Position numbers and translations under genes: made by a program. The notes under the pieces are model-generated. The model was not told where the DNA came from. It saw only the letters and a list, made by a program, of their open reading frames with translations, and did not search any database. A stretch of 64,000 nt of DNA from Methylophilaceae bacterium 11 (lineage in GTDB: Bacteria; Pseudomonadota; Gammaproteobacteria; Burkholderiales; Methylophilaceae), in NCBI GenBank assembly GCA_000525025.1, contig JCKJ01000001.1, positions 1-64,000 of the forward strand, read 5' to 3'. Every line of letters begins with the position of its first letter. Position 1 is the first letter of the stretch. Shown here one piece after another: positions 26,470 to 44,210 of this stretch.

Positions 26470-27168
26470 ATGCCCTCTATTGATCAGCACAAAGATGAAA
26501 TGCCGAACCGTTATACGGCGCTTCTGCTTGCTATTAAACAAATTCCGCAAGCCTTTGCAGCCAACAGAAAACTCATTGGATGGAGTTTGGTGCCACCCTT
26601 TATGGTGCTGCTGTTGGCGGTGTTGATTAATGTCTTTAGAGGCATCACGATTGGCTACCTGACACGTGACCCCAACGCGATTGGCGGTAATACTTACTAT
26701 GCAGGATTTATTTCCCAGTTAGGCATTTTCTTTTGGGCCGGTACCGCAGCTATCTGCTGGTTTAGCTATTGGCTACTTAAACAAGCAAAGACAACATCAG
26801 ACAACATCGTATTGATCGCTTGTGCTGGCGCATTAACGCTATTGTTAGGGTTTGACGATGTGTTTCAATTACATGAAGGCTTTTTCCCCCATATCGGCAT
26901 ATCGGAGAACGTCGTGCTAGCCAGCTATTTGGTCGTGATGATGTGTTTTCTTATTCGATTCCAGCACGTCATTTTGCGTTCAAATTATGTGTTGTTTGGT
27001 ATCGCGCTGAGCTTTTTTGCGCTTTCGATGGTGGTGGATGTGTTCTCTTTGTTTGAACCAATCCGCCATCTACTGGAAGATGGTTTTAAGCTATTTGGTA
27101 TTGTGACTTGGTCAGCCTATTTTGCTGAAATATGTTGGATTGAATTAAGCGGCGTGAAAGCGTCATGA
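26470..27168 (+). CDS. unknown six-helix membrane protein
   Basis: This 232-residue protein was not recognised. About six hydrophobic segments occur (near 40-60, 78-96, 112-126, 140-158, 166-185 and 210-225). Acidic and His residues sit within or next to helices: GFDDVFQLHEGF at about 117-129, VVDVF at about 194, and LEDGFKLFG at about 202-211. Conserved-looking DD/HE/D/ED patterns of this kind occur in metal-dependent membrane hydrolases; this is only an analogy. Its end overlaps the convergent GGDEF-EAL gene by six bases. Confidence 0.75.
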   Translation: MPSIDQHKDEMPNRYTALLLAIKQIPQAFAANRKLIGWSLVPPFMVLLLAVLINVFRGITIGYLTRDPNAIGGNTYYAGFISQLGIFFWAGTAAICWFSYWLLKQAKTTSDNIVLIACAGALTLLLGFDDVFQLHEGFFPHIGISENVVLASYLVVMMCFLIRFQHVILRSNYVLFGIALSFFALSMVVDVFSLFEPIRHLLEDGFKLFGIVTWSAYFAEICWIELSGVKAS

Positions 27169-29518: not shown

Positions 29519-29623
29519 ATGAAACCAATCTTAAACAGCTATTTTGGGCTGGCGTATATTTTGCTGATAGTTATTTTATCCATACATATTTTACCCGCTA
29601 TTTACTCAACGGAAACTTCATGA
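29519..29623 (+). CDS. 34-residue membrane peptide coupled to the Cache/CheW gene
   Basis: An ATG ORF of 34 codons (starting MKPILNSYFG) encodes a single hydrophobic helix (about 8-27) and a short polar end. Its TGA overlaps the ATG of the next gene as ATGA, the hallmark of translational coupling. The upstream GGAAAAG is a weak and rather distant ribosome site. It could be a real small membrane protein or only a leader; conservation would decide. Confidence 0.45.
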   Translation: MKPILNSYFGLAYILLIVILSIHILPAIYSTETS

Positions 29624-32160
29624 CGCAAATCAACAGTAACCAAACAGAAAACTTTCTCCCTTACATGCGCGATGTGGTGAGATGCGAGCAGTCTTTACAT
29701 GAACTCAATTTAATGTGGCGCATTATTGAGTCTTCCGCAAAAATGAATTGCAGTGAAGAGGCCAAAAGTATTTTGCCCACGATGGCAGAAACTAGGCTGG
29801 GATTTAATCGGTTGGAACGTGAGTTAGTCTTAAGTCTGGTGAGCGAAAAAGTATCGACGGTGCTAGAAGAAATTGGTACCAAAGCCCATTACGTGATTGA
29901 TATTCTCGTGAGGAATTTATACGAACGAACCGCGGATGTTGGGTTTCTAGCCACAGACAATGAGCTATGTGCGTTTGTTGCTGGCCTGCAAGGTAATCAA
30001 GATGCCACTCGCTTAAGATTGCGCGCCTATGCGAGTAAATATACGGTCTATGACGAGATTATATTGCTGGATACCGACGGCAATGTGCTTGTACAGATTA
30101 ACAATGAAACGCCGATTGAAGGCAGTACCGACCCACTGATTAAAGCGACACTTGAAACAGAGGGCTATGTGGAAACGTACCGTGCCACTGATTTGCGGCC
30201 CAACAAAGACAAAGCGCTGATTTACTCCAAGCGCATGCATCACCCAGAAACCGGTGCAGTGATTGGTGTGCTGTGCTTGTGCTTTAATTTCACGCAAGAA
30301 ATGGCCGGTATTTTTCAGTCGCATGGCGATCCTACAGGCCGTTCGGTGATGCTATTGGTGGATGCCCACAATACTGTGATTGAGTCGAGCAATCATCGGT
30401 GGATTGCCAAAGGAAGTGAGATTACGAGCTGTGACCATCAGCAAGGGGCTATTGTTGTCTATTGTGGCCGCCAGTACCTAGCGTGCTGTTTCTACGCAGA
30501 GCAATATCAAGGCTACCAAGGGCCACCCGGCTGGCGGGGCATGGTGATGTCACCTATTGATATCGCATTTACCTCGCAAGAGACGGAAGCGTTAACAGGC
30601 TTGAACCCTATTATTGCAGAGGGTTTGTTATCGCACGCCAAATCATTTTGTCCGCCATTGTATGAAATTATCAATGCGGCAGAGGCCATTAAACGCGTGG
30701 TGTGGAACGGACAAGTCACTACGGCAGGCCAGGGTGAAGAGTCTTCCAGATTAAAGACCATTCTGGATCAAATTAGCGAGACCGGTGTGAGAAGCAATGA
30801 GTTGTTCTCGCAATCCATTAACGAGCTTTATGAAACGGTATTGGCTTCTAAGTTACAAGAGTCGGAGTTCGTGTCTACATTGCTGGTGGATCTGCTGGAC
30901 CGTAACTTATATGAGCGATCGAATGATTGCCGCTGGTGGGCGCTGACGCCAGAGTTAAAAACTGCACTTTCTTCTGAGCAGATCAATCCCGCCGAAGTAG
31001 AAAAAATCACAGGCATATTGGAATACATTAACCAGCTGTATACCGTGTACACCAGAATATTTGTCTACGATAAGACCGGTACCATTATTGCCAGCACAGG
31101 CAAAGTAAAAGAACATAAGTCGGTAGTTGGCACAACAATAGACGAGCACACATTAGACAATGTGCTGATGCTGCGACAAGAACAACAATATGTGGTGACT
31201 GCGTTTGAAGCATCGGACTTATACAACCAAGCGCCCACCTATGTGTATCACGCAGCCATTCGTGTGCCAGAAAATACTGCGGTGGTGGGCGGGATTGGCA
31301 TTGTGTTTGATTCCACGCCAGAGCTATTGGCAATGCTAAATTCTGGCTTTAAAAGCAGCGATGTAGTCAGGGGCTTTTACGTCGATAGCACTGGAAAAAT
31401 TATTTCGAGCACAGATCCAACGCGCCCCGTCGGCAGTCAATTGGCGATGGCACCGGAACTATTGGCGCTAAAAAATGGTGAGAGTGCTTCTAAAATCATT
31501 GTGCATGACGATCACTATGCCATCATGGGATGTAGCGTGTCCAATGGATACCGAGAATTCAAAGTATCGGATGGCTATCAAGAAGATGTCATCGCCGTGG
31601 TGATTTATATGCTGGGAGAGGAAAAAGAATTTAACGAGCAGCATGCCGGGCTCATCATTCAAGGCGCAGCCTCTAAAAACCAAACCATGGAATTTGCCAT
31701 TTTTACGGTAGATGGCAGCTTATTTGCATTAGAAGTGGAATATGTATTAGAGGCCATCGCCGCGTCAGAAATATCGATGGTGTCACTGGGTGCAAGTGTA
31801 GAGCGTGTAGGCCTGTTGCCCACAGATACACAATCGGAAAGCAGTTATGTATGGGTCTATGATTTGGGCTATTTACTGACAGGGGTGCCAACGCAAATTA
31901 GCACGGCCAGCCAAGTGGTGGTGGTGAAGTTTGAAGGTCAGAAAATTGGCTTGTTGGTAAATGCTTTAAACTCAGTCACTGCGTTTGATATGAGCCAAAT
32001 CTCTACTTCACCGCTTATTGCCGATGGTAAGCAAGTATTGATTAAAAAGATCATTCAAGCCAATCAAGGCAATGTGCTGATTCAATGGTTGGATATGCGT
32101 GTGCTGTATACATTTTTAAGAAGCCATGTCGTCAGCACGGCTGTTGAATCAAGCGATTAA
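29620..32160 (+). CDS. double Cache-like sensor with CheW domain, cytosolic
   Basis: This 846-residue protein has two related sensor units. Unit one starts near residue 80-110 with VLEEIGTKAHYVIDILVRNLYERTADVGFLATD; unit two near residue 408-440 with FVSTLLVDLLDRNLYERSNDCRWWALT. Each is followed by a Cache/PAS-like beta region (LLDTDGNVLVQIN; VYDKTGTIIAST). The last 150 residues (about 690-835, EFAIFTVDGSLFALEVEYVLEAI) form a CheW-like domain. There is no signal peptide or membrane helix. A CheW domain should bind CheA or chemoreceptors, so the protein may be a soluble chemosensory adaptor. No che genes are in the window. Confidence 0.82.
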   Translation: MTQINSNQTENFLPYMRDVVRCEQSLHELNLMWRIIESSAKMNCSEEAKSILPTMAETRLGFNRLERELVLSLVSEKVSTVLEEIGTKAHYVIDILVRNLYERTADVGFLATDNELCAFVAGLQGNQDATRLRLRAYASKYTVYDEIILLDTDGNVLVQINNETPIEGSTDPLIKATLETEGYVETYRATDLRPNKDKALIYSKRMHHPETGAVIGVLCLCFNFTQEMAGIFQSHGDPTGRSVMLLVDAHNTVIESSNHRWIAKGSEITSCDHQQGAIVVYCGRQYLACCFYAEQYQGYQGPPGWRGMVMSPIDIAFTSQETEALTGLNPIIAEGLLSHAKSFCPPLYEIINAAEAIKRVVWNGQVTTAGQGEESSRLKTILDQISETGVRSNELFSQSINELYETVLASKLQESEFVSTLLVDLLDRNLYERSNDCRWWALTPELKTALSSEQINPAEVEKITGILEYINQLYTVYTRIFVYDKTGTIIASTGKVKEHKSVVGTTIDEHTLDNVLMLRQEQQYVVTAFEASDLYNQAPTYVYHAAIRVPENTAVVGGIGIVFDSTPELLAMLNSGFKSSDVVRGFYVDSTGKIISSTDPTRPVGSQLAMAPELLALKNGESASKIIVHDDHYAIMGCSVSNGYREFKVSDGYQEDVIAVVIYMLGEEKEFNEQHAGLIIQGAASKNQTMEFAIFTVDGSLFALEVEYVLEAIAASEISMVSLGASVERVGLLPTDTQSESSYVWVYDLGYLLTGVPTQISTASQVVVVKFEGQKIGLLVNALNSVTAFDMSQISTSPLIADGKQVLIKKIIQANQGNVLIQWLDMRVLYTFLRSHVVSTAVESSD

Positions 32161-32312: not shown

Positions 32313-32557
32313 ATTAACCCTCCTAAACAGTCTGTTTGACAAGCTAATAATTGTTTCTACTGCGCTTTAAGCATAGCACTAAGTGATTGTTGCGCAAATC
32401 ATTTTCTAGCTTTGTGTGGCATGAGATAACGTTAAATTAAGCGCGTTTTATCCCTCTTATTCATCAATGATTTACCCTCAAGTTTTTTGATAATGCTATA
32501 AGCGCAGGTTTGCCTGCCATTTGCTAACCACAAAACTAACCATAAACAAGGCTGTTG
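32313..32557. other. promoter region between peptide gene and glycosylation locus
   Basis: This 245-bp spacer should hold the divergent promoters of the small membrane peptide and of the large glycosyltransferase operon. No further gene or clear repeat was seen. Confidence 0.4.
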
Positions 32558-35500
32558 ATGATTACCACACAAGAGCAACCCATGACATCCAATACGATGA
32601 CGCCACACACGCTGACAAATCAGCCGATGGCTGCTGCAGGCAAATCAAAAGGTATACCTTCTCCTGTGGTATTGAATCAGCTCATTCAGCACTTCAATCA
32701 AGGCGCGCAGACAGAAGCGCAAACCTTGGCGTTAGCGCTGACACAAGAATATCCCAAGCATGGCATGGCCTGGAAAATATTAGGGGTGATATATCAACAA
32801 GTGTCGCAATTAGAGGCTGCCGAGCAAGCCTTGAAACATGCAGCGGAATTGTTGCCCAAAGACCCAGAGGCACAATACAACTATGCCAATTGTTTATACG
32901 ATCTTCGCAAGTTGCAAAGCGCACAAAGTTATTATCAAAAGGCCATCAAGCTGGCACCACAATTTGTACAGGCACTGTTTAACTTGGCCGATGTGCAAAA
33001 AGAACTCAAACAATGGGCGTTGGCAGAAGCCAATTACCGCAAAGCGTTTCACTTAGCGCCGCAACATGTACACATGCATTTTAATTTTGGTGTGGTGCTG
33101 CAAGAGCAAGGCAAGCACAAAGAAGCCATTAAACAATATGAAAAAGCATTGAATGCCGATGCTGACAATGCGTCGATTCACCTCAATTTAGGCGCTGCCT
33201 ACAAGGCGCTGGGTGAACTAGCGCTAGCTGAGCAACATTACCGCACGGCCATCCGTTGTAATCCAGCCCATGTCGGTGCGCATAATAACTTGGGCATTGT
33301 GCTCAAAGCATTAGAACGTAATGACGAATCGGAACAAGCCTATTTACAAGCCATTGCCATCGATGAAAGCTATTTACCTGCCTATAAGAATTTAGGCATG
33401 TTGTACAAAGAAACCGGCCAAGTGCAAGCCGCAGAACATTGCTATATCAAGGCCTTGAGTTTAGAGCCACCTACCGCAGAAACCCTCAACAATATGGGTG
33501 TAGTGATGATGAACCAAGGGCGTTATGCAGAGGCTGAGGAAGCGGTGCGTAAGGCATTGGATTTAGCGCCAAAGCTGGGTGATGCTTGGAATAATTTAGG
33601 CCTGATTTTACAAGCCAAAATGGTGAATGTGGAAGCTGAACAAGCCTTTGAACAAGCTTTAAAATTTCAACCGAATGATGCAAGAACGCTGAGTAATTAT
33701 AGTGTGACGCTCAAGCTGTTAGGCAAGCTTAGCCAGGCAGAGGCATGCTTGAAAAAAGCCATTAGCAAAGACCCTCATTATGCCGATGCCTATTTGAATT
33801 TAGGCAATATTTATCTCGATCAAGGCATGATTGCAGAAGCCATTGCCAGCACGCAGCGCGTATTAGCGATTGCGCCAAACAATGTGAGTGGACATGACAA
33901 CTTGTTGTTTGCCATGACGTACAGTGATGACTTTACGCCAGAAGCGCGTCTAGAAATTGCGCATCAGTATGGTCAGCTGACTAAATCGCTGGCACATACC
34001 CCTTATGCACAATGGAATGTCAGTGCGCAAGACCAGCGTTTAAGAGTGGGCTTGGTATCGGGCGATTTGCGCCAACACCCTGTGGCCTACTTTTTAAAAG
34101 CGTGGCTAGCCCATGTAGACCCCAACAAAATCGAGTTGTTTGCTTACTCTACCGATGGGCGTGAAGACGCCACTACAGCCACACTCAAACCGTATTTCGC
34201 TCATTGGCAATCGTTGGCTGGTCACAATGATCAAGCAGCGGCAGCCATGATTCATGCCGATCAATTGCATATTTTATTGGATTTATCTGGCCATACCGGC
34301 GGTAATAAATTGCCATTATTTGCTTGGAATCCTGCGCCAGTACAAGCGAGTTGGCTAGGCTATTGGGCCACCACAGGCATACAAGCCATGGATTATGTGC
34401 TGGTGGACGCAGTGGGTGTACCCACCGAACATCAAGCCCAGTTTACGGAAACGATTCAATACTTGCCGGATACGCGCATGTGCTTTACCGCGCCGGAACA
34501 AGCGCCAGAAGTGGCAGCATTGCCAGCATTGCACAATGGCTATATCACCTTTGGTTGTTTTCAAAACATGACGAAAGTGAGCGACGACGTATTAAAAGTG
34601 TGGGCAGAGATAATGCAAGCCTTGCCTACAGCCAAATTGCGCTGGCAATCCAAATCATTTGCCGATGCGCACATTGTGGCTGCCGTGCACAAACGCTTAC
34701 AACAGTGTGGCATTGCACCAGCACGCGTGACTTTACTGGGTAAAGTGAGTCGCCAAGAATATTTAGCCGGTTATGCGGATGTTGATATGGTGCTTGATAG
34801 CTTTCCATTCACCGGTGGCACCACCACGTGTGAAGCTTTATGGATGGGTGTGCCTACACTGACATTAGCGGGCAGTACTTTAATTGCCAGACAAGGCGCG
34901 AGCATGATGAGCGCGGCAGGTTTGGTGGATTGGGTGGTGAACACGCCAGCGCAGTATGTACAGCAAGCATTACACCTTGCAAAAGATATCAGCAAATTAA
35001 CTCAACTCCGAGCAGGGTTGAGGGCGCAGGTACAGCATTCTCCTCTCATGGATGGCCAACGTTTTGCCCACCAGATGGAGACAGTACTGCGTGGCATGTG
35101 GGAGAGCAAAGCGCCGCAGTTGGCAAAATTTGCACAGATTAGTCATGTGGCTAGCGCAGCTGCACAAGATAATAAGCAAGCACTTACTTCTAATGTACAG
35201 CTTACTGTGGAAGTGATCAGCGCAACGCGCATGACAGAACAAGCATTTTGGCAAGCGTCAGCGCTTGGGCAATCACTCAAAACACATATGGCCAATGACA
35301 GCCGCATTGCTGTACGTGTGGCGTATGAAAATAGCCGTGGCCTACCAGAGATTTTTAACACATGCATTGCACAAGCGGACGATGATGCCGTATTGGTATT
35401 TGTGCATGACGATGTCTGGCTAGATCAGCCAGATTTTGTGGATGCTGTACTGGCAGGGCTCAATCAGTTTGACGTGATTGGCGTGGCAGGCAATAAACGT

Positions 35501-38500
35501 AGATTGCCCAAACAACCGGCATGGCCGTTTATCAATACCCAATTTGTGTGGGATGACCATAAATACTTAAGCGGTAAAGTGGGGCATGGTGAACATGCCA
35601 ATGGTGAAGTGTCTGACTACGGTGCTGTACCTGCGGCTTGCGAGTTGATGGATGGTGTATTTTTTGCCACCAAAAAAGCAACGTTAGCTAAACACCAAGT
35701 CGCGTTCGATACGCAGTTCGATTTCCATTTTTATGATTTAGATTTTTGCAGAAGCGCACGCAATGCAGGCATGACCTTAGGCACTTGGCATATCCAACTT
35801 ACCCATCAAAGTGGCGGTGCGTTTGGCAGTGAATCTTGGCAACGCCATTACCAAGGCTACTTACAAAAATGGCAAGAGCAGGATTTGCCGGACAATGATG
35901 TGGCTGCAGCATTGGATATTCACACGTTTGAATTGACGACCGTGGATGACACGGTGAAAGCATTCAAGGCAACGCAGCTTTACCCAGCGGCGGAATACAC
36001 CACGCAGATTATCCCGATATTTGGTAAACCTAGCCCCAACCCGTTGGTGCAGTCTACCCACGTGTTGCAACACCCACCCATTTATATGGCAGAAGTCACT
36101 AACTTTAAAGTGATTGGCAGTGCTGCGTTTCCGATTGTGCAAGATAAGTGCATTCAACCGCAGAACTTTACGCCAGAGACTTGGGAAACCGCAGAGCAAG
36201 GCTTGGGCTATTGCAGTGTGCGTACCGATATCAATTTAGTGGGTTATGCCAACTTGGGTGAGCTTGTTGACCATGATTGCAAAGTGATTAGTTTAATTGG
36301 CAATGGCGCTATTAATTATGCGCATTGGCTGACTGAGTTTTTGCCACAAATTGTGGTGTTGCAGCAGGCTGGTGTGGACATATCTCAATATCATATCTTA
36401 GTGGATGCACAATCGTATCCAAGCCAGCTGGAGTCATTGTATTTGTTAGGGGTCAGCCCTGAACAACTTATCATGGTGGCGCCATTTTCATTGCATCACT
36501 TTCCACAAGCGATGTGGTTGAGCCCGATTGCCAATGTGGTGTTTCAACGCCCCAAAGCGTCTCATGGGGTGGGCAAAGACATTACTTCAGCACCAGACCG
36601 TGCGATTTATCATCCAGCTGCCTTATTGGCATTACGTAACGCCATGCTGGATAAAATGAGCACTGAAATACGCGCTACTCAAGCAGAAAAAATATTCATT
36701 CGGCGTACACGCGGCAATGCCATTAATGCACGCTTGCTGGTGAATGAACAAGCCATTGAGGCACTATTGGTCGCCAATGGTTTTGTGGGTATTGACCCTA
36801 GTGCATTGGGGTTTTTAGAGCAAGTTACCGCATTTAGTAATGCCAAATATATTGTGGCCGCATCTGGTGCAGCCATTTTGAATATGTTGTGGGCACCTGC
36901 CGATGCGCATGTCTTGGTGATGATGAATGACACGCGTTATGCCAACTACTGGTATTTTGGCAATGTGGCCTCGCCGATTGGGCAAACACTTACGTATATC
37001 TTGGGTGAAACCTTAGAGGCGCAATTGGGCGGCGATGTCGTCCACTCGAATTTTACGATAGACCCACAAGCCGTGCTGGATGCATTGCAATACAGAGGCC
37101 TCACCGATGTCGTCCACCCAGCAAAATCCCTACACGATGCGTTGCAAGAAGTATTGGATTTGGCGATAGAGCAACAAAACGCTGGTGATCTGGTGATGGC
37201 AGAGCAGCTGTATCAAGAAGTATTAAACGTACAACCGCATCATGCGGAAGCCAATCACCACCTGGCGATCATCGAAACGCATACTGAACGTTTAGCAGAA
37301 GCTATTCCTAGATTTGAATTAGCGATTGCGGCAAACCCGGCGCATGAGCAATATTGGGTGAGCTACGTCGATGCATTGATGCTGGCAGGCAATGTGGATA
37401 AAGCCGTCAAGACTTTAGAAATTGGTCAGCAGTTTGGATTAAGTGCTGAGACAGCACAGCAACTGGCCGCAGAATTTGTTGCACAGTTAGAAGCACAACC
37501 ACCGCAAAATGATGTCGTTTCTGGCGGGCAAGCGAAACCGATATTGGCGACCTTAGTCCCGGCTTATAAACATGCGTTTATTCCACAGCTATTAGTCAGT
37601 TTAGCTACGCAAAGCTACCCCACCGGCCAAATCATTATTTCGGATGACAGTCCTAATGGCGAAGTCAGCCAAGTGATTGCAGACCCGGCACTTGCGCATA
37701 TCGTAGAAAAATTAGACATCACCATTATTCCTGGGCCTAAGCAAGGCACCATGTCTAACGTGGTGCATTTGCTAGAGCACTGGCAACAATCTAGCCAGTT
37801 AGTACATATTTTGTTTGATGATGACATTTTGTACCCTACGTTCTATGCAGAGCATGTGCAAGCGCACACGCAAGAGGCTATTGGCGCATCGGTTAGCTAT
37901 CGCTGGTTTACCAATGAGCTAGGGCAGCCTTATGCCGCCAGCGCAGTACCCGCTTTTGTGCAGCAAAGTACCAATCAAACTGATTTCATTGGCGCAGACC
38001 AATTGTTTGCATCGGTAGTGCCAACTTGCGATAACTGGTTAGGTGAGTTCTCGAATACCGTATTTAGTGCCGATGCCGTACAACTATACAAACGCTCTCG
38101 CCTGGAAGACATTGCCTATTACGGTTTGGGCGATGTGGGCTTGTTATTAGAAATCTCCCTATATGCCAAAGTGGCATTGATTAAAAACTACTTGGGTGGC
38201 TTTAGGCAAAACGCCCAACAAAATACCGTCAATTACGATTCACCCGTGTTCAAGTGTGGCACAGTGGCTTGGGTGGCGCTGGCGCTGGCTTCTTACAGGC
38301 TAGGCAAAATCAGCGCGCAACAATTGCAACAGTCAGTGCAGTTGATTCAAGGTGCGGTCAATGCACGTTTCCAGCAATCTGCAGACATGCAGGGCTTTAT
38401 CCAACTGTTTAATACCCATGCGTCAGACAGTGCAGCTTTTGAGCAAAATTTCTTGCCGTTATGGCAACAATTGTTAGCATGCAAAGATTGGCTGCATGCA

Positions 38501-38524
38501 CAACAGATAGGGCAATTTGCATGA
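32558..38524 (+). CDS. TPR-OGT-GT-GT61-TPR-GT2 multi-domain glycosyltransferase
   Basis: This protein of 1988 residues contains about 11 TPRs (about 50-455), an OGT/SPINDLY-like GT41 catalytic region (about 490-850: LRVGLVSGDLRQHPVAYFL with the catalytic-site His, GCFQNMTKVSDDVLKVW with the UDP-site Lys, DSFPFTGGTTTCEALWMG), a GT-A-like module (about 880-1115, FVHDDVWL), a GT61 module (about 1240-1510, NGAINYAHWLTEF, AASGAAILNMLWAP), TPRs (about 1530-1640) and a GT2 module (about 1660-1988, LVPAYKHAF, LFDDDILY). The ATG at 32558 has AAGG six bases upstream. It is the first gene of a coupled operon; the next ATG overlaps its TGA. Confidence 0.92.
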   Translation: MITTQEQPMTSNTMTPHTLTNQPMAAAGKSKGIPSPVVLNQLIQHFNQGAQTEAQTLALALTQEYPKHGMAWKILGVIYQQVSQLEAAEQALKHAAELLPKDPEAQYNYANCLYDLRKLQSAQSYYQKAIKLAPQFVQALFNLADVQKELKQWALAEANYRKAFHLAPQHVHMHFNFGVVLQEQGKHKEAIKQYEKALNADADNASIHLNLGAAYKALGELALAEQHYRTAIRCNPAHVGAHNNLGIVLKALERNDESEQAYLQAIAIDESYLPAYKNLGMLYKETGQVQAAEHCYIKALSLEPPTAETLNNMGVVMMNQGRYAEAEEAVRKALDLAPKLGDAWNNLGLILQAKMVNVEAEQAFEQALKFQPNDARTLSNYSVTLKLLGKLSQAEACLKKAISKDPHYADAYLNLGNIYLDQGMIAEAIASTQRVLAIAPNNVSGHDNLLFAMTYSDDFTPEARLEIAHQYGQLTKSLAHTPYAQWNVSAQDQRLRVGLVSGDLRQHPVAYFLKAWLAHVDPNKIELFAYSTDGREDATTATLKPYFAHWQSLAGHNDQAAAAMIHADQLHILLDLSGHTGGNKLPLFAWNPAPVQASWLGYWATTGIQAMDYVLVDAVGVPTEHQAQFTETIQYLPDTRMCFTAPEQAPEVAALPALHNGYITFGCFQNMTKVSDDVLKVWAEIMQALPTAKLRWQSKSFADAHIVAAVHKRLQQCGIAPARVTLLGKVSRQEYLAGYADVDMVLDSFPFTGGTTTCEALWMGVPTLTLAGSTLIARQGASMMSAAGLVDWVVNTPAQYVQQALHLAKDISKLTQLRAGLRAQVQHSPLMDGQRFAHQMETVLRGMWESKAPQLAKFAQISHVASAAAQDNKQALTSNVQLTVEVISATRMTEQAFWQASALGQSLKTHMANDSRIAVRVAYENSRGLPEIFNTCIAQADDDAVLVFVHDDVWLDQPDFVDAVLAGLNQFDVIGVAGNKRRLPKQPAWPFINTQFVWDDHKYLSGKVGHGEHANGEVSDYGAVPAACELMDGVFFATKKATLAKHQVAFDTQFDFHFYDLDFCRSARNAGMTLGTWHIQLTHQSGGAFGSESWQRHYQGYLQKWQEQDLPDNDVAAALDIHTFELTTVDDTVKAFKATQLYPAAEYTTQIIPIFGKPSPNPLVQSTHVLQHPPIYMAEVTNFKVIGSAAFPIVQDKCIQPQNFTPETWETAEQGLGYCSVRTDINLVGYANLGELVDHDCKVISLIGNGAINYAHWLTEFLPQIVVLQQAGVDISQYHILVDAQSYPSQLESLYLLGVSPEQLIMVAPFSLHHFPQAMWLSPIANVVFQRPKASHGVGKDITSAPDRAIYHPAALLALRNAMLDKMSTEIRATQAEKIFIRRTRGNAINARLLVNEQAIEALLVANGFVGIDPSALGFLEQVTAFSNAKYIVAASGAAILNMLWAPADAHVLVMMNDTRYANYWYFGNVASPIGQTLTYILGETLEAQLGGDVVHSNFTIDPQAVLDALQYRGLTDVVHPAKSLHDALQEVLDLAIEQQNAGDLVMAEQLYQEVLNVQPHHAEANHHLAIIETHTERLAEAIPRFELAIAANPAHEQYWVSYVDALMLAGNVDKAVKTLEIGQQFGLSAETAQQLAAEFVAQLEAQPPQNDVVSGGQAKPILATLVPAYKHAFIPQLLVSLATQSYPTGQIIISDDSPNGEVSQVIADPALAHIVEKLDITIIPGPKQGTMSNVVHLLEHWQQSSQLVHILFDDDILYPTFYAEHVQAHTQEAIGASVSYRWFTNELGQPYAASAVPAFVQQSTNQTDFIGADQLFASVVPTCDNWLGEFSNTVFSADAVQLYKRSRLEDIAYYGLGDVGLLLEISLYAKVALIKNYLGGFRQNAQQNTVNYDSPVFKCGTVAWVALALASYRLGKISAQQLQQSVQLIQGAVNARFQQSADMQGFIQLFNTHASDSAAFEQNFLPLWQQLLACKDWLHAQQIGQFA

Positions 38525-39459
38525 GCTTTACATTCAAACCTTACCGCCCCGAAGACTTAGAGACCTGGAATCGTTTCAACCAAGCCAGCCGTAACGGTAC
38601 GTTTTTGTTCGACCGCGGCTATATGGATTACCACGCAGACCGCTTTACTGATGCCTCTTTAATGATTGAAAAAGAAGGGCAGTTGGTCGCTATGCTGCCT
38701 GCCAGTCGCGATGGCGATACCGTGGTATCGCACGGCGGGCTCACCTTTGGCGGACTTATGTTGGCGGATAAAACTGGCGCGGCGGATGTGAAAACCATCT
38801 TCGAGCAACTCAAAGATTGGCTCATTGCCGCCGGTGTGCGTAAATTGATTTATAAACCAGTCCCGCATATTTACCACCGCGTGCCTAGCGAAGAAGATTT
38901 ATATGCATTACACCGCTTAGGTGCCAACACCACGCGGGTGGATGTATCGACCACCATTCAGCAATCTGCACGCTTGCCTTTGGCCAAAGGCAGAAAACAC
39001 GCCATTGGAAAAGCCAAAAAAGCGGGTATTACCGTACAAAAAAGTGAGGATTACGCTAGTTTTTGGCAAATGCTCACACAGAATCTGGAAGACCGGCATG
39101 CGGTAAAACCTACGCACAGCTTGCAAGAAATGCAGCTGTTGGCGTCACGTTTTCCTCAAATCCAATTGTATTTGGCTTACCTTGCTGACCAGCCGGTAGC
39201 AGGCGTAGTGGTGTACGACTATGCCGAGGTAACGCATACCCAATACATCGGCCTAACCGATGCGGCGCGCGAAACTGGCGCGTTGGATGCGTTGCTGGAA
39301 CATTTGATTTCAGACGCCTTTGCGCATAAACCCTATTTTAATTTTGGCATTTCCACCTGTAACCGCGGCTTATCTTTCAATGAAGGCTTAGCGGCACAAA
39401 AAGAAATGTTTGGCGGCAGAACCACTATTTTGCAATGGCTAGAATTGGAGTTGGCATGA
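38521..39459 (+). CDS. FemAB-like GNAT acyltransferase
   Basis: This 312-residue protein belongs to the FemAB/GNAT superfamily: FKPYRPEDLETWNRFNQAS near the start, FLFDRGYMDYHADRFTDASLM, GLTFGGLML, and later YLADQPVAGVVVYDYAEVTHTQYIGLTDAARETGALDALLEHLISDAF. The start ATGA overlaps the stop of the giant glycosyltransferase gene, which supports this choice. Such proteins acylate amino sugars or attach amino acids. Here the neighbouring amino-sugar genes make N-acylation of a 3-amino-deoxyhexose a sound guess. The family also includes peptidoglycan-bridge enzymes. Confidence 0.8.
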   Translation: MSFTFKPYRPEDLETWNRFNQASRNGTFLFDRGYMDYHADRFTDASLMIEKEGQLVAMLPASRDGDTVVSHGGLTFGGLMLADKTGAADVKTIFEQLKDWLIAAGVRKLIYKPVPHIYHRVPSEEDLYALHRLGANTTRVDVSTTIQQSARLPLAKGRKHAIGKAKKAGITVQKSEDYASFWQMLTQNLEDRHAVKPTHSLQEMQLLASRFPQIQLYLAYLADQPVAGVVVYDYAEVTHTQYIGLTDAARETGALDALLEHLISDAFAHKPYFNFGISTCNRGLSFNEGLAAQKEMFGGRTTILQWLELELA

Positions 39460-40229
39460 GTTTGACCACCAAACAACAAGAGATAGAGGCATACCAAAGC
39501 GCGTATTCCGCCAGCAATTTTGAGGTGATACAAGCGCAGTATCGCAAACGCTTATTGTTGGAGTTATTAGAGACACATCAACCCAAACGTATCTTAGAAG
39601 TGGGTTGCGGCTGGGATACCATTGCCAATAGCTGGCAGGGCTTTGAGCATTTATGCATTGTGGAGCCTGGTAGTGAGTTTGCCGAAAAAGCCAGACAAGA
39701 CATGGCGCAAAACAACAAGGTAAAACAAAACAATAAGGTAAAAATAGTACAGCACTTTTTGGAAGAGGCTACCGAGCAGTTGCAAGGTGATTACGATTTG
39801 ATTTTACTCAGTAGCTTACTGCACGAAGTACCCGACGTAGAAGCGCTGATGCTCAGTGCCAAAGCGCTGTGTTCTGCGCATACGCTGGTGCACGTGAATG
39901 TGCCGAATGCGAAATCCATGCACCGCCTATTGGCCTTAGAAATGGGCTTGATCGATACACTGTATGCACCTTCTGAGTTGCAAAAAACCTTTAAACAACC
40001 CCGTATTTTTGATTTACAAAGTCTCAAGACATTGGCTGACCTCACTGGGTTTACAGTGGTGTCAGAAGGCTCGTTTTTTATGAAACCGTTTACCCATGCA
40101 CAAATGCACACACTGGCGCAAACCGGTTTTGCTAACCATGCCATGTTGGATGGCTTATGGGCGTTAACCAAACATTTTCCGGAAAACGGCTCCGAAATTT
40201 ACATTAACCTTCAACGTAAGGAATCCTAA
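39456..40229 (+). CDS. SAM-dependent methyltransferase
   Basis: This 257-residue class I methyltransferase has the SAM motif I (RILEVGCGWDTIA), an acidic residue after strand 2 (CIVEPGSEF) and the motif DLILLSSLLHEVPD. The ATGA start overlaps the upstream gene end by four bases, and its stop overlaps the next ATG by one base. An 18-bp tandem duplication (39708-39743) adds six residues (NNKVKQ twice) in a loop. The position in the operon suggests O- or N-methylation of the sugar or of the glycan made here. Confidence 0.88.
   Translation: MSLTTKQQEIEAYQSAYSASNFEVIQAQYRKRLLLELLETHQPKRILEVGCGWDTIANSWQGFEHLCIVEPGSEFAEKARQDMAQNNKVKQNNKVKIVQHFLEEATEQLQGDYDLILLSSLLHEVPDVEALMLSAKALCSAHTLVHVNVPNAKSMHRLLALEMGLIDTLYAPSELQKTFKQPRIFDLQSLKTLADLTGFTVVSEGSFFMKPFTHAQMHTLAQTGFANHAMLDGLWALTKHFPENGSEIYINLQRKES
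39708..39743 (+). repeat. 18-bp in-frame tandem duplication
   Basis: Two copies of an 18-bp unit follow each other with a single C/T difference (39716 versus 39734). They code for NNKVKQ NNKVKI in the methyltransferase. The near identity points to a recent replication-slippage duplication. Confidence 0.9.
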
Positions 40230-41689
40230 TGATGACTAACCACACAGTAATTGTAGGCAACGCATTGGCCGGCATGATTGCCGCATTAGAACTGGCTGAA
40301 CAGGGTAAACAAGTCACGCTGGTGAACCCGGGCGGCCCATTGGGTGGCTACTTTGCTGGTTTGCAGATTGATGGCGTGATGTTTGATGCCGGTTTGGTCA
40401 AGTTTGAGTTGGATGGCTACCTGAATCAAGCCAAATGGTCTGAGCTGGCAACCTACGATGCTACGGTACGCAACGATGTGGGCCGCTTTTTAAATATCGT
40501 GCATGAGTGGGCACTCAAGTACAGCACGCTCAATCAATTCAGCATGCCCAAAATGATGGTGGATGGCGCCGTGTACGACGACGTGATTCTGAGCAACGCT
40601 TACAACAGCTTTAGCCAGTTTCCTTTTGCAAAAGATTGTATTGCCGAATTACAGCAAGCGCAGCCAGAAGCCTCTATCCATGCGCGTCAAAAATCGAATG
40701 GCGATGCCTATGAAACCTTGGATTATGCCACGGCTTCCATCGCCAACCATGGTAAAACCATGCATGAAAAAATCATTGCGCCTTACTTGCTGAAAGCACA
40801 AGGCGTAACGGCAGATCGTATGCTGGCACGTTATCATCGTGTGGCATGGTTGCCCTTGTTTTATCCGGAAACCCTGTTGGAGAGCTACCAAGGTAAACCA
40901 GTGAACTTGGCACCTACCAAATTCCATTATCCAAAATTAAGCAGTGTGGGTGCGATTGTGACCCAAGTAAAAGCAGAAGTGCTGGCACACAAAAACATTC
41001 ATTACGTGACGCAAGCCGTGCAACAAGTGACTAAAACAGAAACCGGCTGGCAAGTGCGTTGTGCTGACTCTGAACTCAATGCAACGGATTTGGTATGGAC
41101 CTATCAGCCATCACAGCTATTGAAATGCTTAGGCTTGCCACCTACACCAGTGCAGGAAACAAAGTCTGCCATTGCCGTGTCATTCTTCCGCATTAAAAAA
41201 GCCGATATCCGCAATGTGTACACGCTACTCAATGTGGTGGACTTGAATTGCAGCTTGTACCGCATCACCAACCAAACCGCTTGTGCAGAAGACCATGGCG
41301 ATTTTATGAATATCGCGGCTGAATTTAATAGCGACTATTTCCGTAAGTTGTATGGTGATTCAACCGATGATGCACTCATCATTGAGAAACTATTGGCTGA
41401 GTTAGCGCATATGGGACTAATTGCAGCAGATACCGTACCTGTCATCGCCGCCATCAAACGTATTCCCGGTGGCTTTTTGGTGCCGGATGCTGCAGCACGT
41501 GACGCTTGGGAGCTCGACCAACGCACGATTATCCAGCACTACCCAGAGATTGCGTTGCTGGCCATGTCGAGTGGTTTCTTTGCGACTTCACTCAATGACC
41601 AAGTGGTGCAAGGCCTGCATTATGCTGCAACGAAACAGCATATCTTGCCAGTCGATATTTCTGAACAAGCATTGGCCATAAGTGCATAA
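40229..41689 (+). CDS. FAD/NAD(P)-binding oxidoreductase, amine-oxidase/UGM-like
   Basis: This 486-residue protein has an N-terminal dinucleotide-binding fold (HTVIVGNALAGMIAALELAEQGKQVTLVN) and a GPLGGYFAGLQIDGVMFDAGLVKFEL segment like that of flavin amine oxidases and UDP-galactopyranose mutases. The C-terminal part (AIKRIPGGFLVPDAAARDAWELDQRTI, then SGFFATSLNDQVVQG) fits the conserved closing FAD site of this superfamily. The ATG overlaps the upstream stop by one base (TAATG), with AAGGAA before it. In this locus a sugar-oxidation or ring-contraction role is possible, but the substrate is unknown. Confidence 0.8.
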   Translation: MMTNHTVIVGNALAGMIAALELAEQGKQVTLVNPGGPLGGYFAGLQIDGVMFDAGLVKFELDGYLNQAKWSELATYDATVRNDVGRFLNIVHEWALKYSTLNQFSMPKMMVDGAVYDDVILSNAYNSFSQFPFAKDCIAELQQAQPEASIHARQKSNGDAYETLDYATASIANHGKTMHEKIIAPYLLKAQGVTADRMLARYHRVAWLPLFYPETLLESYQGKPVNLAPTKFHYPKLSSVGAIVTQVKAEVLAHKNIHYVTQAVQQVTKTETGWQVRCADSELNATDLVWTYQPSQLLKCLGLPPTPVQETKSAIAVSFFRIKKADIRNVYTLLNVVDLNCSLYRITNQTACAEDHGDFMNIAAEFNSDYFRKLYGDSTDDALIIEKLLAELAHMGLIAADTVPVIAAIKRIPGGFLVPDAAARDAWELDQRTIIQHYPEIALLAMSSGFFATSLNDQVVQGLHYAATKQHILPVDISEQALAISA

Positions 41690-41827: not shown

Positions 41828-42241
41828 ATGCCACTAGAAGATTGCAGAATTATTGAATTGCCTAAAATTCATGACCCACATGGGAATTTAACCTTTGTGG
41901 AAAACAGCTCGCAAATTCCGTTTGAAATGCAGCGTGTCTATTACGTCTACGATGTGCCGGGTGGCGCAGAACGTGGCGGTCATGCGCACAAAGGCTTGCA
42001 CCAGTTTATTGTCGCCATGTCTGGTAGTTTTGACATCACCTTGGATGATGGCAAAAACAAACGCAAATTTCATTTAGCGCGCTCTTATTACGGCTTATAT
42101 GTATGCCCGATGATTTGGCGCGAAATTGATAATTTCTCTTCCGGCTCTGTGCTCATGTGCCTAGCCTCTAACAAATACAGCGAAGAAGACTACTACCGTA
42201 ATTACGATGATTTTATGCGTGCACGTTGGGCTGCAGCTTAA
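41828..42241 (+). CDS. fdtA: FdtA-like dTDP-6-deoxy-hexose 3,4-ketoisomerase (WxcM-like)
   Basis: This 137-residue cupin has the FdtA/QdtA/WxcM-C pattern: RIIELPKIHDPHGNLTFVE, VYYVYDVPGGAERGGHAHKGLHQFIVA (active-site His pair HAH), SFDITLDDG and LYVCPMIWREIDNFSSGSVLMCLASNKYSEEDYYRNYDDF. It should convert dTDP-6-deoxy-D-xylo-4-hexulose to the 3-keto isomer. A GGAG site precedes the ATG. The next gene encodes the matching aminotransferase. The galacto (Fuc3N) or gluco (Qui3N) product cannot be told from this reading, so the symbol is tentative. Confidence 0.88.
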   Translation: MPLEDCRIIELPKIHDPHGNLTFVENSSQIPFEMQRVYYVYDVPGGAERGGHAHKGLHQFIVAMSGSFDITLDDGKNKRKFHLARSYYGLYVCPMIWREIDNFSSGSVLMCLASNKYSEEDYYRNYDDFMRARWAAA

Positions 42242-42270: not shown

Positions 42271-43368
42271 GTGATTCCCTTTTTAGATTTAAAAGCCGCT
42301 TATCATGCGCTGGCCAAAGAGCTGGATGAAGCGGTATTACGTGCCAGCCGCTCCGGTTGGTATATTGGCGGCCCTGAGGTTGAAGCCTTTGAAGCTGCCT
42401 TTGCACAATACACACATACGCAACATTGTGTAGGCGTAGGCAATGGCCTAGATGCGTTAACACTGGCTTTGCGTGCGCTCGATATTGGGCCAGGCGATGA
42501 AGTGATTGTGCCTTCGCACACCTTTATTGCAACTTGGCTGGCAGTGAGTGCGGTAGGTGCCACGCCTGTCCCGGTAGAGCCTGCCTCTGGACAATATATT
42601 ATTACCGCCACAGATATCGCGCCATATATTACCAGCCGTACCAAAGCCATTATGCCGGTGCACTTGTACGGCATGCCCGCAGACATGCCAGCCATTTGTG
42701 ACTTGGCAAAACAACACGGTTTGTATGTGGTAGAAGATGCCGCACAAGCACATGGTGCAGCAATTCAAGGCCAACGCATTGGTAGCCATGGCGATGTAGT
42801 GGCATGGAGTTTTTACCCAGGTAAGAATTTAGGTGCCTTGGGTGATGGCGGTGCGGTGACTACACAAAATCCAGCACTCGCAAAGCGTATTAGGCAATTA
42901 GGCAATTACGGTTCTGCAGTCAAGTATTACAACGATGAATTGGGTGTGAACAGTCGCTTAGATCCCATCCAAGCAGCCGTATTAACGGTTAAGTTGAAAT
43001 ACTTAGACGCATGGAATGCACGCAGACAAGCCATTGCCGCACGTTATCAAGCTGCATTGGCTGATTTGCCGTTAACATTACCAATAACACCAACTGGCGC
43101 AAACCCAGTGTGGCACTTATATGTGCTGGCGACTGCGCAACGCGATGCCTTACAACAACATCTCACACAATCCGGCGTACAAACCTTGATTCATTATCCA
43201 GTACCGCCACATAAGCAACAGGCATATCAACATAGCCCAGTGGCGCAAACCAATTACCCTTTGGCTGAGCAATATGCACTGCAAACACTCAGCTTACCTA
43301 TCGGCCCTCAACTATCAGATGCCGAAGTAGAAACTACCATTGCTGCAGTCCGCGCTTTTTTCGCTTAA
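42271..43368 (+). CDS. fdtB: DegT/DnrJ/EryC1-type sugar aminotransferase (FdtB-like)
   Basis: This 365-residue PLP-dependent aminotransferase has the PFLDLKAAYHALAKELDEAVLRASRSGWYIGGPEVEAFE start, GVGNGLDALTLALRAL, the VVEDAAQAHGA Asp and the catalytic Lys in SFYPGKNLGALGDGGAV. It starts at GTG. Together with the FdtA-like isomerase it should make a dTDP-3-amino-3,6-dideoxyhexose (Fuc3N or Qui3N). No RmlA, RmlB or dedicated FdtC-type acetyltransferase is present in the window. The symbol is tentative. Confidence 0.88.
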   Translation: MIPFLDLKAAYHALAKELDEAVLRASRSGWYIGGPEVEAFEAAFAQYTHTQHCVGVGNGLDALTLALRALDIGPGDEVIVPSHTFIATWLAVSAVGATPVPVEPASGQYIITATDIAPYITSRTKAIMPVHLYGMPADMPAICDLAKQHGLYVVEDAAQAHGAAIQGQRIGSHGDVVAWSFYPGKNLGALGDGGAVTTQNPALAKRIRQLGNYGSAVKYYNDELGVNSRLDPIQAAVLTVKLKYLDAWNARRQAIAARYQAALADLPLTLPITPTGANPVWHLYVLATAQRDALQQHLTQSGVQTLIHYPVPPHKQQAYQHSPVAQTNYPLAEQYALQTLSLPIGPQLSDAEVETTIAAVRAFFA

Positions 43369-43463: not shown

Positions 43464-44210
43464 ATGCGTATCAAACGTAGTATTTGGGTAGTACTGTTCA
43501 GTGGTTTATCGCAATTATCAGATGCCGCTTGTTTAAGTGCCTCTCAATTAAATTTGCTCGCTCAAAACGAGCAGACATTTTTGCTTAACCGTATTCCACC
43601 TGCATTTGCTCATGCAGTGAGTGATCAGCAAGTCAAATTCAACGTCACCGAGGCAAGCGCAGACTCATGCACCGCCGTATTGGCATTGAGTGTACCGGCT
43701 CAACATCTGGATGAAGCTAACGCTGTATTAGATGCCGACCCTGCAAAAAAAATCATGTTATCTGCGCAGGGCTATGTGATACCCAGAACTACCAATATAG
43801 AAGCAACGTTCAAAGTAGATCCTGCTACCTTGCATATTCCGGCAATAGAAACGCTGCAAACTTCAGCTTTAGGGCAGTTGCGTGCAAGTGTAGAAATGTT
43901 GTATTCGCTGATTACACAATCGCGAGCCAACATCACAGACAGCACAAAAAATGCAACGCCATGGAGCGCTACCTATCAGCAAGCAAGTGTCAATCGTTGT
44001 ACAGAAAAGTTGGTTGCACAAGCGGGTCAAGAGATTGCAGCAGCTTGTGCCTGTCGTGTAAATCAATTGTCAGCGCAAGTGAGTGAGCGGCAAATGGCTT
44101 ATATTGATTATGTGAGATCGAATCCGTATGCAGTCGCTACGGGTAGCAGTCAACATTACGTCAGCTTAGAGAGCCAAGCTAACTCAGCATGCGGCTTAAT
44201 TGTTAAATGA
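43464..44210 (+). CDS. hypothetical exported protein
   Basis: This 248-residue protein was not recognised. A signal peptide (about 1-21, ending SDA) is followed by a mainly helical and beta-mixed body with six Cys in the mature protein: ACLSASQL, SCTAVL, NRCTEKL, AACACRV, SACGLIV. The pattern allows three disulfide bonds. It lies 95 bp after the aminotransferase gene, and its stop lies 9 bp from that of the convergent DUF3034 gene. The periplasmic location is likely. Function unknown. Confidence 0.7.
   Translation: MRIKRSIWVVLFSGLSQLSDAACLSASQLNLLAQNEQTFLLNRIPPAFAHAVSDQQVKFNVTEASADSCTAVLALSVPAQHLDEANAVLDADPAKKIMLSAQGYVIPRTTNIEATFKVDPATLHIPAIETLQTSALGQLRASVEMLYSLITQSRANITDSTKNATPWSATYQQASVNRCTEKLVAQAGQEIAAACACRVNQLSAQVSERQMAYIDYVRSNPYAVATGSSQHYVSLESQANSACGLIVK

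Follow-up and report, generated by a model that had tools for sequence, protein, structure and literature searches.

Can a single polypeptide both start a glycan on a protein and go on to build it? The question is raised by one gene in the window, which is the first 64 kb (64,000 nucleotides) of the 2.79-Mb single-contig genome of a methylotrophic bacterium, Methylophilaceae bacterium 11 (genome G000 below). The encoded protein, here called the giant, carries four glycosyltransferase (GT) modules and two TPR blocks in one chain, in the order TPR, GT41, GT2-like (PF13712), GT61, TPR and GT2, and this is a real and unusual feature. A Pfam profile search places all four GT modules above the curated cut-offs, and an earlier note on this DNA, made from its letters alone, was right that one unbroken 5.97-kb frame holds them. 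The gene and its parts are:

32558..38524, + strand: multi-glycosyltransferase gene (the giant), 1988 amino acids from the ATG at 32558, zero internal stops
32699..33883, + strand: N-terminal TPR superhelix, residues ~48-442 (TPR_1 in 11 stretches, 198.6 bits; TPR chains of OGT and SPY matched)
33935..35107, + strand: GT41 module, SPINDLY-like, residues ~460-850 (Pfam, PDB match, His507 and Lys673)
35195..35905, + strand: GT2-like module (PF13712, Glyco_tranf_2_5), residues ~880-1116, with an HDD motif (Pfam)
35915..37111, + strand: GT61 module, residues ~1120-1518 (Pfam core 1254-1452)
37112..37492, + strand: inner TPR block, residues ~1519-1645 (AlphaFold model, Foldseek)
37505..38521, + strand: C-terminal GT2 module, residues ~1650-1988, with an FDDD motif (Pfam)

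The ATG at 32558, with AAGG ahead of it, is one of three candidate starts, the others being an in-frame TTG at 32555 and another ATG at residue 9. Could so long an array be an assembly artefact? That is ruled out because an independent contig, L033 from a Methylophilus metagenome-assembled genome (MAG; genome G048, to which L035 also belongs), has all six parts in the same order, unbroken over 1980 amino acids and with 87% identity. The search for orthologues of identical order that the earlier note had advised turned up two more, both from MAGs and both in broken frames: L032, with a stop within the PF13712 module and 88% identity over a 267-residue GT61 query, and L034, interrupted along with runs of N and 58% identical. 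The nearest named relatives of the window DNA are a MAG contig of Betaproteobacteria bacterium Ga0077540 and a Methylophilus MAG. A plasmid origin found no support in PLSDB, where each of the 39 records returned by tblastn covers less than 80% of the query; in the 10 records listed only the TPR-GT41 part of the giant is covered.

What kind of enzyme heads the chain? The GT41 module scores 178.7 bits against the Glyco_transf_41 profile (cut-off 25), and its best sequence match in the PDB is SPINDLY (SPY; E 1.1e-76), followed by the bacterial OGT-like protein of Thermobaculum (5djs; E 6.8e-70) and, more weakly, by human OGT (E ~1e-44). The earlier label of an OGT-like GT41 module thus stands for the family and gives way for the closer kinship, as SPINDLY is nearer than human OGT; that closeness, a matter of sequence, does not fix GDP-fucose as the donor. 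His507, in an HPVAYF segment, corresponds to the catalytic His498 of OGT, and Lys673 aligns with Lys665, the catalytic Lys of SPY; among the rows of relatives, His507 and Lys673 are each conserved in 38 out of 39. By its type the module would be an initiating protein O-glycosyltransferase, and the TPR superhelix ahead of it would bind the acceptor. The OGT-type His and Lys that the note had picked out by eye, together with its FDDDILY and FVHDD motifs, are all present and kept in relatives.

The profile search that had been recommended for each segment also bore out the three later modules. PF13712 matches residues 937-1076 with 38.2 bits (cut-off 27), is above the cut-off in relatives from G019, G040, G021 and G007 as well, and has the His950-Asp951-Asp952 of FVHDD conserved in 12 of 12 rows (those covering at least 60% of the module). 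Glyco_transf_61 matches residues 1254-1452 with 72.7 bits (cut-off 27; 77.7 bits in another scan). Glycos_transf_2 matches residues 1667-1791 with 33.6 bits (cut-off 23.3), and this PF00535 match recurs in G021 (39.2 bits) and in L034, whose TPR-GT2 part is only 37% identical to that of the window yet scores 33.7 bits. Asp1754-1756, the DDD of FDDD, is kept in all five distinct sequences, L034 and four in the module alignment, whose fifth row, L001, was excluded as a truncated copy of the window; alignment A2, with four rows including L034, keeps FDDD in 4/4.

Structure prediction, which the note had expected to display four separate catalytic folds, was run on residues 875-1988 in two pieces and gave the TPR helices but, the alignments being shallow, not the catalytic folds. 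For residues 875-1518 the mean predicted local distance difference test score (pLDDT) was 47.3 with an alignment of only 6 rows, and the PF13712 and GT61 folds are unconfirmed; for residues 1519-1988 it was 58.9 with only 4 rows, and the GT2 fold is likewise unconfirmed. The inner TPR, on the other hand, is modelled as seven helices, with 10-residue block means of pLDDT from 79 to 95 across the first 90 residues and Foldseek template-modelling scores, normalised by target, of 0.75-0.82 to designed TPR proteins. The close Foldseek matches of the 1519-1988 model (root-mean-square deviation <3) were TPR proteins, and its GT2 part had no match. Profiles, model and Foldseek together place TPR blocks ahead of and between the GT modules, in keeping with the note's description of TPRs flanking the middle ones. 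A PDB sequence search with the PF13712 piece gave only 2qgi/2nxv at E 0.1, no credible match, and with the C-terminal GT2 piece none at all; a match of the GT61 piece to a MazG-like protein (E 0.0007, 22 bits) was set aside as unrelated.

Which protein might such an enzyme decorate? Relatives suggest an answer. With the GT41 and PF13712 part as query (666 residues, E<=1e-60), 37 of 100 Methylophilaceae genomes matched, and 20 of these, in three genera, hold a contiguous fusion, i.e., one stop-free match spanning 640 residues or more; the remaining 17, with partial matches mostly to the GT41 part, were not counted. The fusion is present in 11/11 sampled genomes of the window's genus, in 8/10 of genus g7 and in the single genome of g21. 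Flagellin (PF00669, E<=1e-25) is found in 47 of the 100 genomes, including all 20 with the fusion, and at the same thresholds the fusion occurs in none of the 53 without a flagellin match. Giant and flagellin are 1.9-30.6 kb apart in 18 of the 20 genomes and less than 20 kb apart in 17. The two exceptions are the window genome, where 995 kb separate them, and G048, where they are on different contigs. So the giant may work like a member of a flagellin glycosylation island; it is not placed like one here, as the giants of those 18 genomes are, and because of the 995 kb the link to flagellin for the window giant is by family only.

The later modules are far from constant. Among the 20 fusion genomes, the recognised GT content of the giant is GT41 and PF13712 only in seven, these two followed by GT2 in two, and by a second GT41 in eight, seven of which have a methyltransferase domain after it. 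Only the window genome and G048 have GT41-PF13712-GT61-GT2, and the last, G081 (L088 8479-17598), has GT41, PF13712, a second GT41, GT61 and GT2, i.e., five GTs in 3040 amino acids; its giant has three flagellin genes nearby, a DegT gene lying among these and an FdtA gene next to them. In G021, G040, G060 and G078 the GT61 forms a protein of its own. Because several relatives carry long C-terminal parts beyond the recognised modules, these counts, from two to five GTs in a chain, are lower bounds. As a unit, then, the four-module fusion holds in 2/20 genomes and in L032 and L034, while in most relatives its later modules are rearranged or separate; the exact window order is a local variant. 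Other combinations were met in passing. In L044 9231-12416 (G004) the frame of a GT41 runs on into a segment that matches DegT aminotransferases (110 bits), possibly a fusion of transferase and sugar-making enzyme. L041 3781-6417 and L080 9078-11747 encode GT61-TPR proteins with a C-terminal module like CDP-glycerol glycerophosphotransferase (PF04464 match in L041, of whose module L080 carries a homologue), and because of that module a CDP-linked donor would fit them.

Directly behind the giant come five genes on the same strand, the first three of which overlap:

38521..39459, + strand: GNAT/FemAB-like acyltransferase (longest open reading frame, ORF, from 38461); its ATG at 38521 shares bases with the stop of the giant (ATGA)
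39456..40229, + strand: S-adenosylmethionine-dependent methyltransferase (longest ORF from 39435); its ATG at 39456 overlaps the preceding stop as ATGA
40229..41689, + strand: FAD/NAD(P)-binding oxidoreductase-like protein, with a TAATG overlap with the preceding gene
41828..42241, + strand: FdtA-type dTDP-sugar ketoisomerase (PF05523, 192.9 bits, cut-off 23)
42271..43368, + strand: DegT/DnrJ sugar aminotransferase, FdtB-like by position, the last cluster gene (395.1 bits, cut-off 19.8)

With RmlB encoded elsewhere in the window genome (G000:C1:1422338; 500.2 bits, cut-off 365.1), the RmlB, FdtA and DegT steps of an FdtA/FdtB dTDP-aminosugar pathway are all present, and their product is likely dTDP-3-(acyl)amino-3,6-dideoxyhexose. 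Both FdtA and DegT have homologues alongside giant and flagellin in 7 of the 18 linked genomes (G021, G040, G060, G069, G078, G081, G099); this count covers the scanned stretches, which for G027, G019, G036 and G057 lay around the giant only. In G099 homologues of the GNAT, methyltransferase and FAD-enzyme genes are at the giant/flagellin locus too, and in G007 all five accessory genes have the gene of a PF13712-TPR protein on one side and that of a GT41 protein on the other, while flagellin is on a different contig. Sixteen window products between 24.8 and 50.8 kb were scanned with Pfam, two of which (26470-27168 and 43464-44210) matched nothing; none belonged to a flagellin, pilin or S-layer family, and none to a flippase, polymerase or ligase family.

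If the giant serves flagellin, why is it so far from it? Directly ahead of flagellin in G000 and G048, where there is no giant, is a pair of genes, one for a 479-residue protein and one for a response-regulator-like protein of 215 residues (a reading without Pfam). The homologous pair is ahead of the giant in G027 (496 and 306 bits), with flagellin another 31 kb beyond the giant, and in G040 (501 and 307 bits); G051 has only the 215-residue homologue (306 bits) ahead of its giant, at a contig end. At the right border of the window cluster, the DUF3034 gene is found in 9/9 further genomes of the genus, with the homologue of 43464-44210 beside it in 8/9, and neither DegT nor another cluster gene is beside that block in any of the nine, in a stretch reaching only ~0.6 kb beyond. 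Because relatives have the right-border block without cluster genes, insertion in the window lineage is the best reading of the cluster at 32.5-43.4 kb, and its origin, on this comparison of gene order, would be relocation from the flagellin locus. Just upstream of the giant (29620-32160) is a gene for an 846-residue protein that combines a dCache sensor with a C-terminus like CheW and whose Pfam matches include no kinase or methyl-accepting chemotaxis protein signalling domain.

A different chemistry is suggested for several relatives, in which a fused phosphoenolpyruvate (PEP) mutase-cytidylyltransferase of 432 amino acids lies beside or between giant and flagellin (e.g., G027, L042 12241-16217). 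The same loci have a thiamine pyrophosphate enzyme like phosphonopyruvate decarboxylase, a small cytidylyltransferase and an ORF resembling 2-aminoethylphosphonate transaminase, the last a reading without a Pfam match; ORF starts similar to those of L042 12241-16217 are found in L036, L037, L038, L043 and L057-L059. Because of these mutase, decarboxylase, transaminase and cytidylyltransferase genes, flagellin glycans in those relatives may bear a phosphonate, e.g., 2-aminoethylphosphonate. A literature search of open-licence PubMed Central (PMC) found no paper on phosphonate on flagellin glycans.

The reading that we favour, with rather more belief than doubt, is that the giant would be an FlmG-like initiator fused to chain extenders and the key enzyme in a cluster for O-glycosylation of flagellin that has been relocated. 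Its observed basis is the four profile modules, the catalytic motifs, the overlapping genes and the linkage to flagellin across the family. Also in its favour, a search for Maf-like PF01973 matched 0/7 genomes, a weak test in that the model detects archaeal controls only. That the protein could assemble a short glycan on a protein target, as the earlier note had proposed, is made likely because the GT41 is of initiator type and flagellin is close by in 18/20 genomes; flagellin as the probable target goes beyond that proposal. As to target, order of addition, donors, linkage and activity, we infer the following. The N-terminal TPR superhelix would capture flagellin in the cytoplasm and the SPINDLY-like GT41 module would place the first sugar on Ser or Thr, after which further sugars would be added successively by the other three modules of the chain, PF13712, GT61 and GT2, with the inner TPR keeping the acceptor near during extension; once glycosylated, flagellin would be exported. 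At least one of the sugars would be the dTDP-3-(acyl)amino-3,6-dideoxyhexose made via RmlB, FdtA, DegT and perhaps the coupled GNAT, and the coupled methyltransferase would possibly methylate it. The flagellin of the window genome has 266 residues and an estimated 27-28 kDa, and that of another Methylophilus strain runs at 31 kDa on a gel (PMC13303613); with the strains different this is only a hint, and in the available part of that paper 'glycosyl' occurs 0 times and no glycan is mentioned.

Several observations weigh against a role on flagellin. The window genome's own giant is 995 kb from its flagellin gene. The 20 genomes, being related (three genera), do not amount to 20 independent events, and G084 of genus g7 has flagellin without the fusion (G006, of the same genus, has neither at E<=1e-25). 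Outside the family, a search of 300 Burkholderiales genomes at E<=1e-110 gave 16 matches, of which G329 and G363 carry GT41 with PF13712 and no visible flagellin linkage: in G329 flagellin sits on contigs other than that of the fusion, and in G363, whose fusion frame has one TAG, no flagellin matched at E<=1e-15. Twelve of the 16 have flagellin, with GT41 within 30 kb of it in four (G191, G203, G290, G319); the wider GT41 family is thus untied to flagellin, and it is Methylophilus and its relatives that carry the link. No sigma-28-like site was detected upstream of the giant (best score 17.0, against a maximum of 19.5 in 300 random 440-bp pieces), while the window genome's flagellin has one scoring 22.0; five flagellin-linked giants tested also had none (15.5-16.5). 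Another TPR-GT41 protein, 600 amino acids long (G000:C1:1378981-1380741, in L047), is encoded in the window genome and could serve flagellin. Lastly, with low pLDDT and weak PDB matches, the folds of the three later GT modules are unproven.

Might the giant, on the same principle, now serve another secreted or surface protein such as a pilin, S-layer protein or adhesin, with flagellin left bare or to the 600-residue protein at 1379 kb? The distance, the missing promoter site, that second GT41 protein and the fusion in G363 would all suit this, and we consider it unlikely though deserving of attention: none of the ORFs listed for the 19-kb surroundings of flagellin in the window genome matched the GT modules used as queries, the moved cluster retains accessory genes with homologues near flagellin in relatives, and the window products scanned include no such surface protein, though the two matchless ones could hide an acceptor. 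Another thought is that only the GT41 initiator and one or two other modules work, the rest being degenerate scaffold and the glycan a mono- or disaccharide. The modest PF13712 and GT2 scores and the failure of AlphaFold to resolve a fold for the later modules lend themselves to it, but the invariance of HDD and DDD, the GT2 score of the divergent L034 and the occurrence of the modules as separate or differently fused proteins make it improbable. Could the product be part of a polysaccharide or of lipopolysaccharide (LPS), and not a protein glycan? RmlB is common to such paths, and FdtA/DegT, GT2 and GT61 enzymes occur in LPS and capsule clusters too. However, proteins are the acceptors of the characterised TPR-GT41 enzymes SPY, OGT and FlmG, the 16 products (two matchless) showed no flippase, polymerase or ligase family, and the family linkage is to flagellin, so that this would be a considerable surprise.

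Returning to the flagellin cluster reading, how does it compare with known systems? FlmG of Caulobacter crescentus, of 596 amino acids with TPR and GT parts, requires the two of them to glycosylate flagellin, which it does in the cytoplasm; in the available text on it the N-terminal TPR has flagellin specificity, the C-terminal part is GT-B, and a Maf ortholog is lacking (PMC7591256). The giant has the same layout, TPR and then a GT-B-type GT41 in one chain, as judged from its own Pfam and PDB matches. FlmG, by that account, has one GT and uses pseudaminic acid (PMC7591256), whereas the window protein adds three GTs and an inner TPR and its neighbours suggest an amino-dideoxyhexose. SPINDLY and OGT (PDB 7y4i, 8dtf, 5djs, 3pe3) share the TPR and GT41 layout with the active-site His and Lys; SPY and human OGT are eukaryotic, nucleocytoplasmic and have one GT each, whereas the window module has three more GTs in its chain. 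In dGT1 of Streptococcus parasanguinis, one chain has two GT modules that act successively on the protein-bound glycan of the adhesin Fap1, but one of these is a DUF1792 GT-D and the other a GT-A bearing a helical domain; they extend and do not initiate, and the available parts of the papers mention no TPR (PMC5063993, PMC5207161). Flagellin islands of Enterobacteriaceae group GT41 (SPINDLY-domain) enzymes, most carrying a methyltransferase domain, with FdtB/DegT and methyltransferases; they differ in having 1-3 GTs per island from a single GT family, and no GT41, PF13712, GT61 and GT2 fusion is mentioned in the part of the paper available (PMC4875605). By title and abstract, none of the papers listed in searches of the open-licence PMC literature is about such a fusion or about flagellin glycosylation in Methylophilaceae.

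As a rule, a protein glycan is the work of several transferases, each a protein of its own, and acceptor specificity sets their order. A bolder thought, to which we give somewhat less than even credence, is of a family of single-chain assembly lines, TPR-tethered proteins that would initiate and extend a whole flagellin glycan with two to five GT modules swapped, added or split between species. The window protein would then make a tetrasaccharide and its 3040-residue relative in G081 a five-step product, with a logic that would be comparable to that of modular synthases. SPINDLY-like GT41 enzymes would be extended to a bacterial setting, in a methylotroph that permits direct tests of donor and acceptor, and a single gene would serve as a tool for putting defined oligosaccharides in place in the cytoplasm. 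If one chain does initiate and extend, and species differ in its modules, the order of the modules may be readable as the sequence of the glycan, and genomes would then allow flagellin glycans to be predicted.

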